Assembly: GCF_000215955.2 (NCBI RefSeq)
Contig: NZ_AFNV02000006.1
Location: 1-64,000 of the forward strand
Source: Salinisphaera shabanensis E1L3A
GTDB taxonomy: Bacteria > Pseudomonadota > Gammaproteobacteria > Nevskiales > Salinisphaeraceae
Direction: 5' to 3'
Length of the DNA stretch: 64,000 nt
Positions 3,680-58,185 of the stretch are shown in pieces; position 1 is the stretch's first letter, and each line of letters opens with the position of its first letter. The translations under genes were made by a program, and so were the position numbers. Below the pieces are notes generated by a model, which saw only the letters and a program-made list of their open reading frames with translations, did not search any database and had not been told where the DNA came from.

Positions 3680-3802
3680 GAATCTTGAGTCGCTAGGTAG
3701 TGCACAGGGGCACTGATGAAGCGTAATAGTGGTAGTATTCGCAATGTGCTATGGAATTATATAAAGCACAACGATAAATATATCATTGAAAAGGTAATTA
3801 AT

Positions 3803-4159
3803 ATGAAAACTGCAAGTTCAAGACTCGGCCTTGCCGTTGCACTGAGTCTGGCCGGTTCGTCGGCAGCGCTGGCTGGAACTGAGCCAGTTGCGCCTGAGAA
3901 CACGACGGCCAGGAACATGATGGTAGCCCAGGCTGAAGCCGTCGACGATCTGCAAAAATATGAGTCCATGTATCAAAATGAAATGATGGACGCAGAAACC
4001 ATGCAAATGCTGGACGTGAACGCGGATGGCATTATTTCGAGAGAGGAGTTCATGCATGTGCACGAAGCTATTTTTGATATGGCCGATAAGAATAAAGATG
4101 AAAAGCTAGAAGAAGACGAGATGGGCAAGGGCAGTTTGCCGGAGATGAAGACAGGCTAA
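3803..4159 (+). CDS. Secreted EF-hand protein
   Basis: The protein has 118 residues and starts at 3803, where a signal peptide (residues 1-24, ending SSAALAG) begins; an in-frame ATG at 3716 would put 29 AT-rich-coded residues before it. Two EF-hand loops follow: D71-E82 is fully canonical (D-x-N-x-D-G, E at position 12), and D95-E106 keeps all acidic ligands but has E at position 6 instead of G. The mature protein is acidic and probably binds Ca2+ or another divalent ion in the periplasm. It is 79 bp from the His/Cys-rich PPYRPP gene and may belong with the two small secreted proteins downstream. The 120 bp upstream is AT-rich and is the likely promoter. Confidence 0.8.
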   Translation: MKTASSRLGLAVALSLAGSSAALAGTEPVAPENTTARNMMVAQAEAVDDLQKYESMYQNEMMDAETMQMLDVNADGIISREEFMHVHEAIFDMADKNKDEKLEEDEMGKGSLPEMKTG

Positions 4160-4238: not shown

Positions 4239-4595
4239 ATGCGTGTCATAGCTACTTTAATATTGCTCGTCGTTGCGATAGCGGCACAAGCCGTCACGCC
4301 CGTGGCGTCACATAGCGATGATTTCGCATCGGCCATTGACTCTAATGCGACCCAGCAGGGGTCGTCGGCTAAAACAAGTTCTGCGAGCGCCGCGTCTGAT
4401 CACGGTCACGAGGGCGGCGACACATCGCGAGAGCACTGCCACACTGGCGGGCACTGCTCGCCAAGCGCGCTCGATACCGATCCGTTGCTGTATCATGCAC
4501 AATACTCGCCGGTTACGCGCACAGCGGGTCACATCAGCAGCGAGGCCGAGCCGGGCTTCGCTTCGCCTCCCTATCGCCCTCCGTCTCCTGTCTAG
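4239..4595 (+). CDS. Small secreted His/Cys protein with C-terminal PPYRPP (copy 1)
   Basis: A 118-residue protein with a signal peptide (residues 1-24), a low-complexity His/Ser/Asp stretch, then a metal-ligand cluster EHCHTGGHCSPSA (C67, C73, H66, H68, H72) and a C-terminus reading FASPPYRPP. The start at 4239 places the signal peptide at the N-terminus; an ATG at 4185 in frame is less likely. Paralogues are at 54069-54425 (also 118 residues) and 23759-24124. The layout resembles small periplasmic proteins beside copper or cobalt-zinc-cadmium efflux genes (CopL, CzcI, DUF2946), but I cannot assign it to one of these. A copper- or zinc-binding role is inferred. The next gene, at 4800, encodes the SHIHAGPH protein, and that pairing recurs at 53.5-54.4 kb. 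Confidence 0.75.
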   Translation: MRVIATLILLVVAIAAQAVTPVASHSDDFASAIDSNATQQGSSAKTSSASAASDHGHEGGDTSREHCHTGGHCSPSALDTDPLLYHAQYSPVTRTAGHISSEAEPGFASPPYRPPSPV

Positions 4596-4748
4596 CCCGC
4601 CGTAGCGGTGCATGGCATGCACCCGCTTATCGATATTCTCGGTCGAGATCGATAAGCACGCCGGCGCGACCTCGACTACTTAATCGGCGATTTCGCACGC
4701 TTGGATCAGCATCCCAGGCGAGACGAATTTCCCCGACGGAACAATGAT

Positions 4749-4772
4749 CGTCTGTTTTTCAATTAACAGACG
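4749..4772. promoter_or_regulatory. Inverted repeat upstream of the SHIHAGPH gene
   Basis: Arms CGTCTGTT and AACAGACG are separated by 8 bp and end 27 bp before the start codon at 4800. It could be an operator or the weak end of the preceding transcript. No matching dyad was found upstream of the paralogue at 53879. Confidence 0.4.
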
Positions 4773-4799
4773 TCTGATCAGTAGTACAGGAGACTAGAC

Positions 4800-5267
4800 A
4801 TGTATTATCCAAAGAAAACACAGGCCATTATTTCATCCTTCTGTCTCGGCGCCATCGCGCTTGGGGGGGCAACCATCGCCTCTGCCCAGGTTGGCAGCCT
4901 TGACCGATATCACAACCATGGGGCGTTGAACAACGCTGACGTACAGTTCGTGGCAACCGAGAACTCGGTTAGACGAATCCAGAGTCCCGAATCGTGGCGC
5001 ACGTCCACCGGTAAAGCGACTGCAAGTCGGCTCGGAGGCAACATTAATGGGCCGTCGACACCTGGTGAAACCGAAGGCGTAAGAGGAGGCGAAGACTATG
5101 ACGTGGCCCCAGACCGGCCCGAAAAGCGTACTAGTTCTGCCGATCAATCCGAACTCGATGAATCTAGAGGTGATCCGGGAACAAAATCTAACCAGGGGAC
5201 GTCGGAGAGCGTTCAAGACCACTCCGATCCTCGATCCCATATCCACGCGGGCCCGCATAACCGGTGA
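4800..5267 (+). CDS. Secreted protein with C-terminal DPxSHIHAGPH motif (copy 1)
   Basis: A 155-residue protein with an N-terminal signal (to about residue 29, TIASAQ), a polar, probably disordered middle rich in Ser/Thr/Glu/Arg, the short motif EDYDV (around residue 99), and a C-terminal motif DPRSHIHAGPH carrying three histidines. I know no family with this signature. The paralogue at 53508-53879 shares DYDV and the C-terminal motif but little else, which points to these as the functional parts. The histidines suggest metal binding (inference). It has a good start context and is followed by a strong GC hairpin. Confidence 0.75.
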   Translation: MYYPKKTQAIISSFCLGAIALGGATIASAQVGSLDRYHNHGALNNADVQFVATENSVRRIQSPESWRTSTGKATASRLGGNINGPSTPGETEGVRGGEDYDVAPDRPEKRTSSADQSELDESRGDPGTKSNQGTSESVQDHSDPRSHIHAGPHNR

Positions 5268-5302: not shown

Positions 5303-5328
5303 AGCGGGGCGGCATAGGCCGCCCCGCT
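5303..5328 (+). terminator. Rho-independent-like terminator after the SHIHAGPH gene
   Basis: An 11-bp perfect GC stem (AGCGGGGCGGC / GCCGCCCCGCT) with the loop ATAG is followed by TTGGTTGTGT. It lies 36 bp after the stop codon. The T-run is weak, but the site also separates this gene from the convergent EamA gene. Confidence 0.7.
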
Positions 5329-23593: not shown

Positions 23594-23758
23594 AATGCGT
23601 CTCCGTGGGAACGGTGACGCAGCACGGCGCTCTAGGACTTTGCTGAGATAACCGCCAAGTGGCGACTTTCAACAATCTCCTAGTGAAACGCTATGCAAAA
23701 GCTGCAACCACCGTTCTGATTGATGTTCGGCGCATGCGTGATGCACCAAAAGCTTCAA

Positions 23759-24124
23759 TTAGACGCGAATAGACGGCGGTCGATAGGGAGGGTGTTCGAA
23801 CCCGGGTGCGACCGAAACAGACGCACGGCTCACCAAGTGCGCCGCAGGGGGAAACAGCGCATCAGTTCGGAAGCTGGTGTCGACTGCACTCGAGGAGCAA
23901 TGGCCCATGAACGTGCAGCAGCACCGCTCATGGGATGGGGAGTCGCCATTACCCTGTACGTGCTTCGTCGCGTGCGAGTGCTCGCTGGCCGTCGCACCCG
24001 GGTTCGTAACAGCGGATGTTTCCGCGTTGGCGTGCTCGGAATCGTGCAGGCAAGATATTCCCGGGACGCCCGCTTGGGCGACCAAGGCTTGCAACAGCAA
24101 AATTAGAACCAAGAAGGCACGCAT
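23759..24124 (-). CDS. Small secreted His/Cys protein with C-terminal PPYRPP (copy 3)
   Basis: A 121-residue protein with a signal peptide (residues 1-18), a His/Ser stretch, a cluster ERCCCTFMGHCSSSAVD and the C-terminus FEHPPYRPP. It shares the GHCxxSA core and end with the proteins at 4239 and 54069, but has an extra Cys triplet and is not followed by a SHIHAGPH gene. It is upstream of cytochrome c, copA and copB in the same direction and may be the leader of that copper operon, as CopL is in Xanthomonas. Confidence 0.75.
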   Translation of the reverse strand: MRAFLVLILLLQALVAQAGVPGISCLHDSEHANAETSAVTNPGATASEHSHATKHVQGNGDSPSHERCCCTFMGHCSSSAVDTSFRTDALFPPAAHLVSRASVSVAPGFEHPPYRPPSIRV

Positions 24125-24173
24125 CAGTCGAACTATATCAGGATAGGCAAGGCTAGCAATGGCCGTCGGCTAA

Positions 24174-29731: not shown

Positions 29732-30061
29732 TCAGGCGTGGAGGTCACGCGGAGGGAAGGGATCGGGGCCATCCAGCAGCCGGCCGCGATGGGCGGACGG
29801 GGAAGGAAACAGCGCCGCGGGCGCCGGATGAAAAACCGGCATATCGGTACGGTTCATGCTGGCGACCATCGCGCAGGCGGCCACGGCACAGCTGGCGGTA
29901 GCCGATGCCGAATGCGGCTGATTCGACAACTCGTTCTGGCAAAGTGCGCAATCGTCCATCCGGGTCTCGGACTCCATGGACCATGCCATGACCGCGGGGC
30001 TCGCCAGTACGCTGCCGAGCATAACGATCATCACGAGCAATTGGGCAATGAACCGCTTCAT
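29732..30061 (-). CDS. Cys/Met-rich leader-type secreted protein (CopL/DUF2946-like)
   Basis: A 109-residue protein with a signal peptide (residues 1-26, PAVMA), a DDCALC pair, ASCAVAACAMVASMN, and a Pro-rich end containing PFPPR. Architecture and position (first gene behind a MerR-type promoter) match CopL- or DUF2946-type proteins. It shares the CAVxxC style with the protein at 42288. Probably periplasmic copper binding; not firmly assigned. Confidence 0.65.
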   Translation of the reverse strand: MKRFIAQLLVMIVMLGSVLASPAVMAWSMESETRMDDCALCQNELSNQPHSASATASCAVAACAMVASMNRTDMPVFHPAPAALFPSPSAHRGRLLDGPDPFPPRDLHA

Positions 30062-53443: not shown

Positions 53444-53470
53444 AAGGGGACAGCTCATCGCTGTCCCCTT
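53444..53470. terminator. Strong symmetrical hairpin
   Basis: An 11-bp perfect stem AAGGGGACAGC / GCTGTCCCCTT with the loop TCATC, 37 bp past the stop of the SHIHAGPH gene (minus strand). The A and T at the base allow termination in either direction. Confidence 0.65.
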
Positions 53471-53507: not shown

Positions 53508-53879
53508 TTAGTCGCGAGTGTGAGGGCCAGCGTGAATATGCGACTGCGGATCAGTATGGTCCTCGCCTTCCTGATTTTCCTTTTCCGCACCACGTTTGGG
53601 GACATTCTCGGACGCCCACCCAGGCTCGCCCGAGTGTTCAATGACGTCGTAATCGTCGGCGCCTCTCGGACCGGTGTTGCCTCGGCTAGGCGACGGGGCT
53701 GTCTCGGAACTGCCTTCGACTCTTACCACCGCCTGAGTATTCCCTGAAGCTGTGGTGTCAGCCGATTCGGCTTCATGGCCTGCCCCAGCGCTTGCGGTCA
53801 TAAATATCGCGCTACTGAGGAACAGAGAAGTCGCGATAAACCAATGTGATGTAGACGGATTAACATTTGAGATGTGCAT
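53508..53879 (-). CDS. Secreted protein with C-terminal DPxSHIHAGPH motif (copy 2)
   Basis: A 123-residue protein with a signal peptide (FIATSLFLSSAIFMTASAGA), a polar middle with DDYDV, and the C-terminal DPQSHIHAGPHTRD. The ATG at 53879 follows GGGAG; an ATG at 53900 is possible. The two blocks shared with the protein at 4800 define the family. Metal binding by the histidines is inferred. It follows the PPYRPP gene in the same direction, as at 4.2-5.3 kb. Confidence 0.75.
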   Translation of the reverse strand: MHISNVNPSTSHWFIATSLFLSSAIFMTASAGAGHEAESADTTASGNTQAVVRVEGSSETAPSPSRGNTGPRGADDYDVIEHSGEPGWASENVPKRGAEKENQEGEDHTDPQSHIHAGPHTRD

Positions 53880-54068
53880 GAGTTCACTCCCGTAATTCAT
53901 ATCAACGATAAAGCTGCAAAACGCGATCGCAATTGACCAGTTCGTCTAGCCTCAAGCTACCAATTTGCTTTTATAGCTCGGAGCGCGGCGTACGTCTGCG
54001 GACACAAGCAGATTTGATTAGAGTCTGCTTAATCCAGGCGCGTTTGAGCCGCTGCCAATGCGAAAAGG

Positions 54069-54425
54069 CTACGACGCTCTGGCGGGAGGACGGTATGGTG
54101 GTAAAGTAAATCCGCTGCCAACCTCACTTTGATTAAGGGCAGCAGGCTTTACCGCAAAATAATAATCCGTTTTGAACAAGAAATTGCTAGCGCCTATGGC
54201 ACTCGCTGCGCAATGGCCGACAGATGCGCATTCATGGTGGGTCTGATCCTCTGAGCCATCGTGATGTTCATCGTCGGCGGTAGATGCGGCCTTTGTCGGT
54301 TCGCTGCCGATTGTGGATTGTGCGTGAGCACCGCCGAATTGGATCGAAATGCTCGGTGCCGTTTGTCCGCTAGCCTGTGTGGCAAACGCGGCCAATAAAA
54401 GCAATAGTGCGAATATGAAACGCAT
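54069..54425 (-). CDS. Small secreted His/Cys protein with C-terminal PPYRPP (copy 2)
   Basis: A 118-residue protein with a signal peptide (residues 1-20), a Ser/Thr/Asp/His stretch, the cluster HHECASVGHCAASA (C66, C72) and the C-terminus TLPPYRPPARAS. Same length as the protein at 4239 and also paired with a downstream SHIHAGPH gene (gap 189 bp). Periplasmic metal binding is inferred. Confidence 0.75.
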   Translation of the reverse strand: MRFIFALLLLLAAFATQASGQTAPSISIQFGGAHAQSTIGSEPTKAASTADDEHHDGSEDQTHHECASVGHCAASAIGASNFLFKTDYYFAVKPAALNQSEVGSGFTLPPYRPPARAS

Positions 54426-54923
54426 GTGATCGAACGTAGATGCGGTTAGGCTAAAAATCAAGAGCGTGATGTGCTGAGTAGCATCTTGTGTTGAGGGCGT
54501 CGAAAGTAGATTGAATCGCCACCGGGCTCAGGGCCCATTCGACACTCTGCTCAAACCATGACCGCGGAAAGATCGCCAGCAGTAGCCGCCCGGGATCGAT
54601 CTTGGGAGAAGCTGGGAGCGTGTTCCCAGTGGCTGATGTCCTTGGTGTGCATGGAGCGCTCCTCATCTACGGGTGAACGCCGACGCGTGCGTTGTGGGGT
54701 TCGGTCGTTGCTTAGGCGGATCGATTCTTGAAAGTTTACCCTTGGCGCCGGCTGGCAGCACCGGGGCGAACGAAACGGGTGGTGCTCGTAGCGCTAGGCG
54801 ATCGGCTCTGCCTTACATCCGGCCGATCGCATCGCTTGGCGCGGGCTTTTATCGTCGGCGGTACTGTCCACCGGCATAAGAGACCGTCCCACGCGCTTTG
54901 ACGCGTGCCGATTACCTAGACCC
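54426..54923. other. Intergenic region, no firm gene
   Basis: A frame of 71 codons at 54451-54666 (minus) and another at 54673-54879 (plus) show no domain, signal or good start. A small hairpin CACGCG/CGCGTG at 54890-54907 may end the dmeF transcript. Confidence 0.4.
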
Positions 54924-56403: not shown

Positions 56404-56784
56404 ATGCAGCTCAAAAAGACATACTGGTTGCAACTGGCCGCGGTCATGATGCTCATGATGCAGGCAGCAGGCCTGCATGCCCATATCAGCATCGACGCCA
56501 ATGACACCTCGATCCAGAGCCATTTGCAGGCGGCCGAATCGCACGCAGACAGCCATGCATCAGACAGCGAATCGTCTGACGACGCGTCCAATCATCTAAC
56601 CCAAGCTACCTCGGCCAAGTATCAGAGCAGCATGGGCTGGGTTCTTCCGGTCTTTCTGGCCTGCGTGCTGCTGGATGACCCCGCCTCCTCGGTTAAGCCC
56701 GATTTCCCAGACGGGCAGGAAACGCCTCACCCTGCCGCTTACTACCAGCGGCCGCCTTCCCGTGGCCCGCCTGCTATTGCCTGA
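56404..56784 (+). CDS. czcI: CzcI-like small periplasmic protein
   Basis: A 126-residue protein with a signal peptide (to about residue 26, GLHA), a His/Asp/Ser-rich middle, a hydrophobic stretch (GWVLPVFLACVLL) and a Pro/Arg-rich end YYQRPPSRGPP. Position directly before czcCBA and the RPP end fit CzcI. It lacks the Cys cluster of the PPYRPP proteins. Probably modulates the pump or binds divalent ions. Confidence 0.7.
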   Translation: MQLKKTYWLQLAAVMMLMMQAAGLHAHISIDANDTSIQSHLQAAESHADSHASDSESSDDASNHLTQATSAKYQSSMGWVLPVFLACVLLDDPASSVKPDFPDGQETPHPAAYYQRPPSRGPPAIA

Positions 56785-56868: not shown

Positions 56869-58185
56869 ATGAATATTGGTATTCGACGCATCACTTGCGT
56901 GATGGGTCTCGTGTTTTGGTGCGTGTCGGCTTCAGCCGCGCCGGACGCCAATCCGTCGGCAAGGCCGCTTACTTTTTCCGACGCGATCTCGAGGGCGCTG
57001 GACCGCAATCCGGGCCTGCGCGTTTTTGCCTACCGCCAGCGCGCGCTCGGTGGTCGCCGCGATACGGCCGCGCTAAGGCCGGCGCCCGAGTTGCAGTTCG
57101 AGCTACAGGACTTCGGCGGCACAGGCAGTGCGAGAGGCTTTGATCGCGCGGAAGCGACCTTGGCGCTTTCGCAGGTAATCGAACTTGGCGGTAAAGGCGA
57201 TGCGCGAGTCGGCGTTGTGGATGCGCGCCAGCGAGCGGTTGCGATTCAAGAAAAAGCGCAGGAGCTTGACGTCTTGGCCGCTGTCGCGCGCCGCTTCTAC
57301 GCGGTTGCGGCAGCTGATGAGCGCCTAGCGGTCGCCAAGCGTGCGTCCGAACTTGCCCGCGACGCTATGACGGGCGTGAATCGACGTGTCAATGCGGCGC
57401 GCGCACCGCGCGCTGAAGCCGCGCGCGCCAAGGCGGCTTTGGCGCGCGCGCAGCTCAATAGGGCCAACGCCGAGCGCGAACTCGAGATCGCCCGGTTACG
57501 GCTGGCCGCGCTCTGGAACATGCCCGAGCCGGACTTCAAAAAAGTTCGCGCTGATCTCTACGCGGTGGGCGCGCCAGGCGATTTTGACGTCCTGGCCGAG
57601 CGTATTCAAGCCAATCCGGACTTCCTGCAGTTCACCGCAGAAAGCCGAATACGCCAGGCCGAACTGCGTCTCGCCCAGTCGCAAGCCCACAGCAATATTC
57701 GCCTGCGCGCTGGTGTAAAGCGCCTGGAAGATACCGGCGACACCGCCTTGATCTTCGGCGCGAGTGTGCCGCTGTTTTCGGCCAGTCGTGCCCAGGGCGC
57801 CATCGCTGAAGCCGAGGCCCGAGGCGAGGCCGTGGGCGCGGAGCGACGCGCCATGCTGTTGGATACGCGGGCGCGGCTGTTCTCGCTTTATCAGGCCCGG
57901 GCGCAGGCGATAGAAACAGTCGCCACCCTGCAAGACCAGATTATTCCGCAGCAGGAACAGGCACTGAGCGAAATTCGTCGAGGCTACGACCGAGGTCGTT
58001 ATAGCTATCTCGAGCGCGTAACCGCCCGTGGTGAACTCATCGATGCCGAGCGCGCATTGATTGATGCCGCCGAGCGCGCGCATCGCCTGCGTGCCGATAT
58101 CGAAAGCCTGACCGCCGAACCGCTGCCCGGCGGTGACGGTCGCATCGAATTCAACAGCAATATCCAATATCCGGAGTCGCCATGA
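56869..58185 (+). CDS. czcC: Outer-membrane channel CzcC
   Basis: A 438-residue TolC-family protein with a signal peptide (to about residue 24, SASAA) and two OEP repeats rich in Ala, Arg and Glu. It exports Co/Zn/Cd with CzcBA. The stop overlaps the czcB start by 4 bp. Confidence 0.9.
   Translation: MNIGIRRITCVMGLVFWCVSASAAPDANPSARPLTFSDAISRALDRNPGLRVFAYRQRALGGRRDTAALRPAPELQFELQDFGGTGSARGFDRAEATLALSQVIELGGKGDARVGVVDARQRAVAIQEKAQELDVLAAVARRFYAVAAADERLAVAKRASELARDAMTGVNRRVNAARAPRAEAARAKAALARAQLNRANAERELEIARLRLAALWNMPEPDFKKVRADLYAVGAPGDFDVLAERIQANPDFLQFTAESRIRQAELRLAQSQAHSNIRLRAGVKRLEDTGDTALIFGASVPLFSASRAQGAIAEAEARGEAVGAERRAMLLDTRARLFSLYQARAQAIETVATLQDQIIPQQEQALSEIRRGYDRGRYSYLERVTARGELIDAERALIDAAERAHRLRADIESLTAEPLPGGDGRIEFNSNIQYPESP

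Follow-up and report, generated by a model that had tools for sequence, protein, structure and literature searches.

In upstream ORFs of the CutF, CruR and CopL type, the nascent chain serves as a cis-acting sensor and the protein itself does not accumulate (PMC9973294, PMC9426467). CutF has 118 amino acids, a C69xxH72C73 motif and a proline-rich C terminus, and acts in cis only (PMC9973294, PMC8456105). It was shown that copper bound to the exported nascent chain of CutF prolongs pausing, which in turn opens a stem-loop that hides the Shine-Dalgarno sequence of the next gene (PMC8456105, PMC9973294). This masking stem-loop was shown for CutF itself and is not required of all CutF-like proteins (PMC9973294), which are recognized by a length below 150 residues, a signal peptide, a PP motif among the final 15 residues and a gene on the same strand no more than 1000 nt away (PMC9973294, PMC8456105). 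Bordetella has a DUF2946 relative, CruR (PMC9426467), whose arrest at an RAPP motif has been demonstrated (PMC12992588). The first experimental descriptions of nascent-chain metal sensors date only from 2022-2023, and according to the published work their modes of action seem to differ.

The window analyzed here is a stretch of 64,000 nucleotides from Salinisphaera shabanensis E1L3A. A sequence-only reading had reported two cassettes in it, at 4239-5267 (+) and 54425-53508 (-), each formed by a gene for a secreted protein with a C-terminal PPYRPP motif and a gene for a protein ending in SHIHAGPH. Both were located there, and their first proteins are indeed equally long, with 118 residues counted from the MR starts (Table 1). 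This pair occurs twice, as had been stated, and the window holds in addition a third PPYRPP paralog that has no SHIHAGPH partner. The second protein of copy 2 more likely starts at 53879 than at 53900, because a GGGAG sequence lies shortly 5' of the ATG at 53879; the gaps between leader and SHIHAGPH gene measure 204 nt in copy 1 and 168-189 nt in copy 2. A gene for a secreted EF-hand protein is found on the same strand just upstream of copy 1 (3716-4159, +), and a similar protein is encoded 3' of copB in genome G003 (L058:10084-10440).

Table 1. Features of the two cassettes and of the copA-linked paralog in the window.
Feature	Position	Strand	Remarks
PPYRPP leader gene, copy 1	4239..4595	+	Putative CutF/CopL-like upstream ORF, 118 aa
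Hairpin GGTGCAT-GGC-ATGCACC	4607..4623	+	11 nt past the stop codon of the copy 1 leader
SHIHAGPH gene, copy 1	4800..5267	+	155 aa, secreted, probably disordered; Shine-Dalgarno AGGAG
SHIHAGPH motif codons, copy 1	5235..5258	+	Conserved C terminus
Strong GC hairpin, 11 bp	5303..5328	+	About 38 nt 3' of the copy 1 SHIHAGPH stop; probably closes the transcription unit
PPYRPP leader gene, copy 2	54069..54425	-	118 aa, C-x5-C with GHC, PPYRPP
Hairpin AAGCAGA...TCTGCTT	54006..54030	-	Copy 2, gap between leader and SHIHAGPH; read by eye
SHIHAGPH gene, copy 2	53508..53900	-	123 aa from the more likely start; Shine-Dalgarno GGGAG
SHIHAGPH motif codons, copy 2	53520..53543	-	Conserved C terminus
Strong GC hairpin, 11 bp	53444..53470	-	About 40 nt 3' of the copy 2 SHIHAGPH stop; probably closes the transcription unit
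Third PPYRPP paralog	23759..24124	-	CCC-x5-C type; heads cytochrome c-copA-copB, CopL position, no SHIHAGPH
Post-stop hairpin of the copA-linked leader	23726..23750	-	Arms TTTGGTGCAT/ATGCGCCGAA
Hairpin TGCGTCaCCGT...ACGGaGACGCA	23596..23621	-	Encloses the Shine-Dalgarno of the cytochrome c gene

The two SHIHAGPH proteins of the window are 36% identical over 70 residues. They were initially thought to share only DYDV and the C-terminal motif; both elements are common to them, and the shared part is slightly larger, namely, G-x-RG-x-[DE]-DYDV and D-H-[ST]-D-P-x-SHIHAGPH-x-R. The DNA encoding the motif is unlike in the two copies (CATATCCACGCGGGCCCGCA versus CATATTCACGCTGGCCCTCA), so that the conservation is at the protein level. 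When distant copies are compared, the constant parts are a G-x-x-x-[DE]-D-[YF]-D motif in the middle and a P-x-[SA]-H-[IM]-HAGPH tail that ends two to three residues ahead of the stop. The mature proteins consist of 85-92% disorder-promoting residues and contain 6-9 histidines and no cysteine. Structure models are unstructured past the signal helix and, being built from single sequences, are weak evidence for disorder. Searches against Pfam produced no match up to an E value of 1, and those against NCBIfam only a chance-level match for one protein (P0004), far under the family cut-off; the proteins thus match no described family in either collection, and no description of the motif was found in the sources searched, as the sequence-only reading had supposed. 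Given the metal-sensing type of leader in front, the copper genes around and the histidine-rich tail, SHIHAGPH is most likely a periplasmic or extracellular metal buffer, probably for copper. Metal binding by the tail is plausible from its histidines and context, and that the protein as a whole binds metal has, in our estimate, somewhat under an even chance. In two further SHIHAGPH proteins (L064, 3628-4146; L075, 3435-3953), about 42 residues around GPRGADDYDV are internally duplicated in tandem.

The pairing of the two cassette genes exceeds what chance would give. Among 85 genomes of the order, a profile search detected SHIHAGPH genes in nine, i.e., eight Salinisphaera genomes and a foreign-looking bin (G029) that holds what looks like a Salinisphaera contig with the pair. 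A PPYRPP gene is located immediately upstream, on the same strand, of every SHIHAGPH gene examined, and nowhere in these 85 genomes was SHIHAGPH found without it, in agreement with the conserved pairing proposed earlier. The pair is kept down to about 28% identity (range about 28-45%) and in differing genomic places: copy 2 and its relatives are flanked by a cation-efflux gene on one side and MerR/HMA/P-type ATPase genes on the other, and in three genomes (G004, G006 and G011) the cassette directly precedes a further PPYRPP gene, the first of a cytochrome c-copA-copB operon. The records closest to the second protein of the cassette come from S. japonica (100%) and relatives. PPYRPP-type genes were present in all 14 Salinisphaera genomes searched, including those devoid of SHIHAGPH.

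In the wider searches, the SHIHAGPH family was not found elsewhere in a sample of 200 genomes of the phylum, with one weak match set aside (G607, E 8e-4), a 308-residue frame that was taken as compositional. A class-wide search of 369 genomes for the DNA pattern of H-x-HAGPH near a stop gave scattered matches, with no small secreted protein among the loci read; a match in G043 was rejected since its reading frame is not SHIHAGPH-like. A plasmid search with the SHIHAGPH and PPYRPP proteins as queries gave no matches, and spread on catalogued plasmids is therefore not supported. A record titled Endozoicomonas sp. G2_2 (L012) contains the Salinisphaera cassette with 97% identity; the genome that matches it clusters with Salinisphaera, and the record is probably mislabelled.

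The SHIHAGPH-linked leaders group together in a single clade that is separate from the copA-linked ones (support 98/98; 99% of bootstrap trees), and the metal motif differs accordingly, with C-x5-C in the former and CCC-x5-C plus an upstream cysteine in the latter. The simplest reading of this history is a single leader duplication, followed by dedication to SHIHAGPH. Purifying selection acts on both genes of the pair, with dN/dS values of 0.23-0.45 between divergent copies of SHIHAGPH. The PPYRPP gene at L071 6025-6495 (-) in genome G005 has an altered C terminus, apparently by frameshift (PYRPPVFRYLTDARRRL); there, a hairpin precedes the actual stop, and the gene is possibly a decaying leader.

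The anatomy of the first protein is that of a CutF-like leader. The two cassette proteins are 38% identical across their C-terminal 72 residues. They begin with a hydrophobic stretch that ends in AQA/TQA and was judged by eye to be a signal peptide, with a helix at residues 2-17 in the structure model, and their PPYRPP motif is followed by 3-4 residues; the next gene lies on the same strand within less than 1000 nt. In copy 1, a C67-x4-H72-C73 motif is combined with PPYRPP at residues 110-115. In every copy listed, the arginine of PYRPP follows the last cysteine at a distance of 39 or 40 residues, with variable sequence in between and variable lengths outside this stretch, and a Cys/His motif at a fixed distance from PP is common to the cassette and copA-linked proteins. 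Profile matches are weak, and the cassette leaders fall outside formal membership of either family: they scored 17.9 and 20.4 for DUF2946 (PF11162), under the Pfam gathering cut-off of 23.7, and 15.2 and 16.1 bits for CopL_fam (NF033807), under the curated cut-off of 40. DUF2946 matched 12 of the 16 PPYRPP members at E<=0.1, and one copA-linked paralog (from G003) exceeded its cut-off (24.7 versus 23.7). The third paralog of the window matched CopL_fam over its full length (27.1 bits, E 1.4e-5), also under the 40-bit cut-off; the searches for both families recovered few bona fide members. That PPYRPP works like CutF/CopL is well supported, and the protein is very probably a cis-acting leader of this type.

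This bears on the sequence-only reading, in which both genes encode stable secreted proteins that jointly capture metal in the periplasm. The functional partnership itself is supported by the invariant linkage and the single leader clade; joint capture as its kind does not fare as well, and we consider it unlikely. Signal peptides on both proteins, their histidine (and cysteine) motifs and the invariable pairing of SHIHAGPH with PPYRPP are compatible with joint capture. However, PPYRPP paralogs also head copA operons in which SHIHAGPH is lacking, the fixed Cys-to-PP spacing, the missing Shine-Dalgarno sequence and the hairpin past the stop fit a cis-acting leader, and published work shows its relatives to be degraded once exported and to act in cis only (PMC9973294). 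Having the anatomy of CutF/CruR/CopL upstream ORFs, PPYRPP is more likely a regulator of SHIHAGPH than a co-purifying metal-capture protein.

Further evidence comes from the RNA elements around the leader. A strong hairpin past the stop was found in 14 of 17 PPYRPP copies versus 8 of 194 control genes (Fisher 8e-14), and in 11 of 14 once near-copies were collapsed (Fisher 4e-11); these p values are optimistic, as the test was designed once hairpins had been noticed by eye. Between the first base of the stop codon and the start of the hairpin the distance is 9-15 nt, and the arms of the hairpin are unlike in sequence (GGTGCA/TGCACC, CGGCGC/GCGCCG, GCAACG/CGTTGC, GACACT/AGTGTC, TGTAGT/ACTACA and others), indicating that pairing rather than sequence is kept. 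An outer helix, which in many cases contains or borders the stop codon (e.g., TAACTG/CAGTTA), scores above controls (p 3e-5). No consensus structure of the post-stop regions was obtained with MAFFT and RNAalifold, because the differing arms were misaligned, and the hairpin was therefore tested by position against control genes. Dinucleotide-shuffle z-scores of 60-nt windows alone were modest (mean -0.87); the signal comes from where one hairpin lies and how strong it is. Copy 2 has no strong hairpin near the stop. It carries a different one about 40 nt further on, and G003 has one there too, with other arms (AAGGTT...AACCT at the matching site); both were read by eye.

The two kinds of target gene differ in their ribosome-binding sites. 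Ahead of cytochrome c, the Shine-Dalgarno sequence is masked by pairing in five of six copA-linked copies (probability unpaired 0.01-0.17). For SHIHAGPH genes as a set, CutF-type masking was not observed, with probabilities of 0.73, 0.05, 0.90, 0.51 and 0.40 and a control mean of 0.40. A Shine-Dalgarno core precedes six of six SHIHAGPH genes versus none of nine PPYRPP genes, that of copy 1 included. In several PPYRPP copies, a -10-like sequence, read by eye, ends a few bases 5' of the ATG, which together with the missing Shine-Dalgarno suggests very short or absent leaders on these mRNAs; they may be leaderless. Two such regions in the window are 24125-24160 and 54426-54460. A strong GC hairpin follows SHIHAGPH within about 20-40 nt at 7 of 7 loci versus 9% of controls. 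With a Shine-Dalgarno sequence on the second gene only and this hairpin behind it, leader and SHIHAGPH look like a closed two-gene unit.

It might alternatively be argued that the two genes are mere neighbors in a copper island and separately regulated, PPYRPP being a remnant or duplicate of a copA leader and SHIHAGPH an unrelated stress protein. Intergenic gaps of roughly 150-250 nt, together with the lack of general Shine-Dalgarno masking before SHIHAGPH, point in this direction, and a gap of 170-200 nt could offer room for a separate promoter; promoter consensus scans gave nothing useful and none was seen in the gap. We nevertheless judge this view improbable, much like that of joint capture, because the pair persists at low identity in varied places with its leaders in a single clade, purifying selection acts on both genes and, in all cases, the unit ends in a strong hairpin behind SHIHAGPH.

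As the leader always directly precedes SHIHAGPH, the pair is probably a metal switch with its controlled protein and not two co-binding proteins. We think it likely that the PPYRPP leader controls SHIHAGPH, and only a little less so that the cassette as a whole is a bicistronic unit in which a nascent metal-sensor leader governs one secreted, disordered, His-tipped protein. According to this model, the nascent chain of the CutF/CruR/CopL-like leader would be exported by Sec, and its Cys/His site would be exposed outside while the PPYRPP codons, 39-40 residues behind the last cysteine, are in the ribosome. Metal binding would then alter the length of the ribosome pause at PPYRPP, few codons ahead of the stop, and this would affect the folding or the fate of the adjoining downstream mRNA, at the hairpin lying at a near-fixed distance, where a ribosome paused on PPYRPP would be expected to cover the hairpin site. 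The change in the mRNA would set the expression level of the next gene, SHIHAGPH presumably being the sole gene controlled in both cassettes. Metal sensing, the identity of the metal, ribosome pausing, the direction of the response and the function of SHIHAGPH are what we infer here by analogy, and a point against a sensor leader is that PPYRPP differs from RAPP and RGPP, the motifs with demonstrated strong arrest.

That SHIHAGPH is itself a leader-type arrest protein with a tail like the I-R-A-G-P of SecM is highly improbable: its I-H-A-G-P lies 2-4 residues from the stop, conservation is confined to this tail and a short motif in the middle, RAGP serves as an arrest core and HGPP is known from arrest sequences (PMC12992588), and copper genes follow it in G004, G006 and G011, but the arrest-essential arginine is replaced by histidine (HAGP instead of RAGP), copy 1 has no co-directional gene downstream, a strong GC hairpin stands after every copy and the good Shine-Dalgarno sequence suggests ordinary expression.

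The preferred reading of a leader with its controlled protein can be taken further, in a tentative form. A distinct C-x5-C clade of copper-sensor leaders, without Shine-Dalgarno and possibly leaderless, might be dedicated to a genus-specific disordered secreted protein, which would make the two-gene unit a nascent-chain-controlled extracytoplasmic metal sponge. Equally tentatively, the switch could be the hairpin behind the leader stop and not the masking of the next ribosome-binding site. If SHIHAGPH were such a sponge, it would be a kind of target that is absent among those of CutF-like leaders in the literature searched.

The searches did not find the SHIHAGPH family outside Salinisphaera-type DNA. 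It is an undescribed family of secreted proteins that is conserved in short motifs only and is under purifying selection, and its histidine-rich tail (peptide DHTDPQSHIHAGPHTRD) lends itself to metal titration. Within the one genus Salinisphaera there are many leader paralogs with near-invariant Cys-to-PP spacing, hairpins with varied arms and targets of two kinds: cytochrome c-copA-copB, whose Shine-Dalgarno sequence is masked, and SHIHAGPH, whose Shine-Dalgarno sequence generally is not. This natural collection lends itself to finding out which element of leader or RNA sets the mode of action.

Several known systems resemble the locus to differing degrees. The window contains a candidate CutF-like leader in a CzcI-type position at 56404-56784 (+), a small secreted His-rich ORF directly ahead of a czcC-like gene (56869-58185). 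Like CzcI-type leaders before czcCBA, it precedes a metal-efflux operon; it differs from PPYRPP in sequence, in its PPSRGPP end and in its target. A 109-residue secreted ORF (29732-30061, -) that contains the motifs CALC and CAVAAC and has a PP tail is another possible CutF-like leader. The third paralog lies directly ahead of a copA-type operon; copL in the copLAB operons of Xanthomonas and Stenotrophomonas (NF033807) and cutF in Rhodobacter occupy the same place with respect to their multicopper oxidases, whereas the cassette paralogs precede another kind of gene. CruR of Bordetella pertussis, a DUF2946 protein, is likewise the exported product of a small upstream ORF, with cysteine and C-terminal PP motifs at near-constant spacing and a long intergenic gap (162 nt). 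However, its motifs are CXXC and RAPP instead of C-x5-C and PPYRPP, and its target is a TonB-dependent transporter that copper switches off.

The comparison with CutF of the Rhodobacter capsulatus cutFOG operon is the most detailed. Both CutF and the cassette leaders have 118 residues, a Sec signal peptide, HC at positions 72-73 and a proline-rich C terminus about 40 residues past the Cys/His motif, and CutF is likewise the first gene before copper genes. The differences concern the motifs, C-x5-C and PPYRPP in Salinisphaera versus C-x3-C and GPPPRL in CutF, the target, which in Salinisphaera is a probably disordered secreted protein with a Shine-Dalgarno sequence that is not generally masked, and the extra hairpin directly after the stop of the Salinisphaera leader. 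The masking hairpin of CutF has its counterpart in the copA-linked Salinisphaera paralogs.
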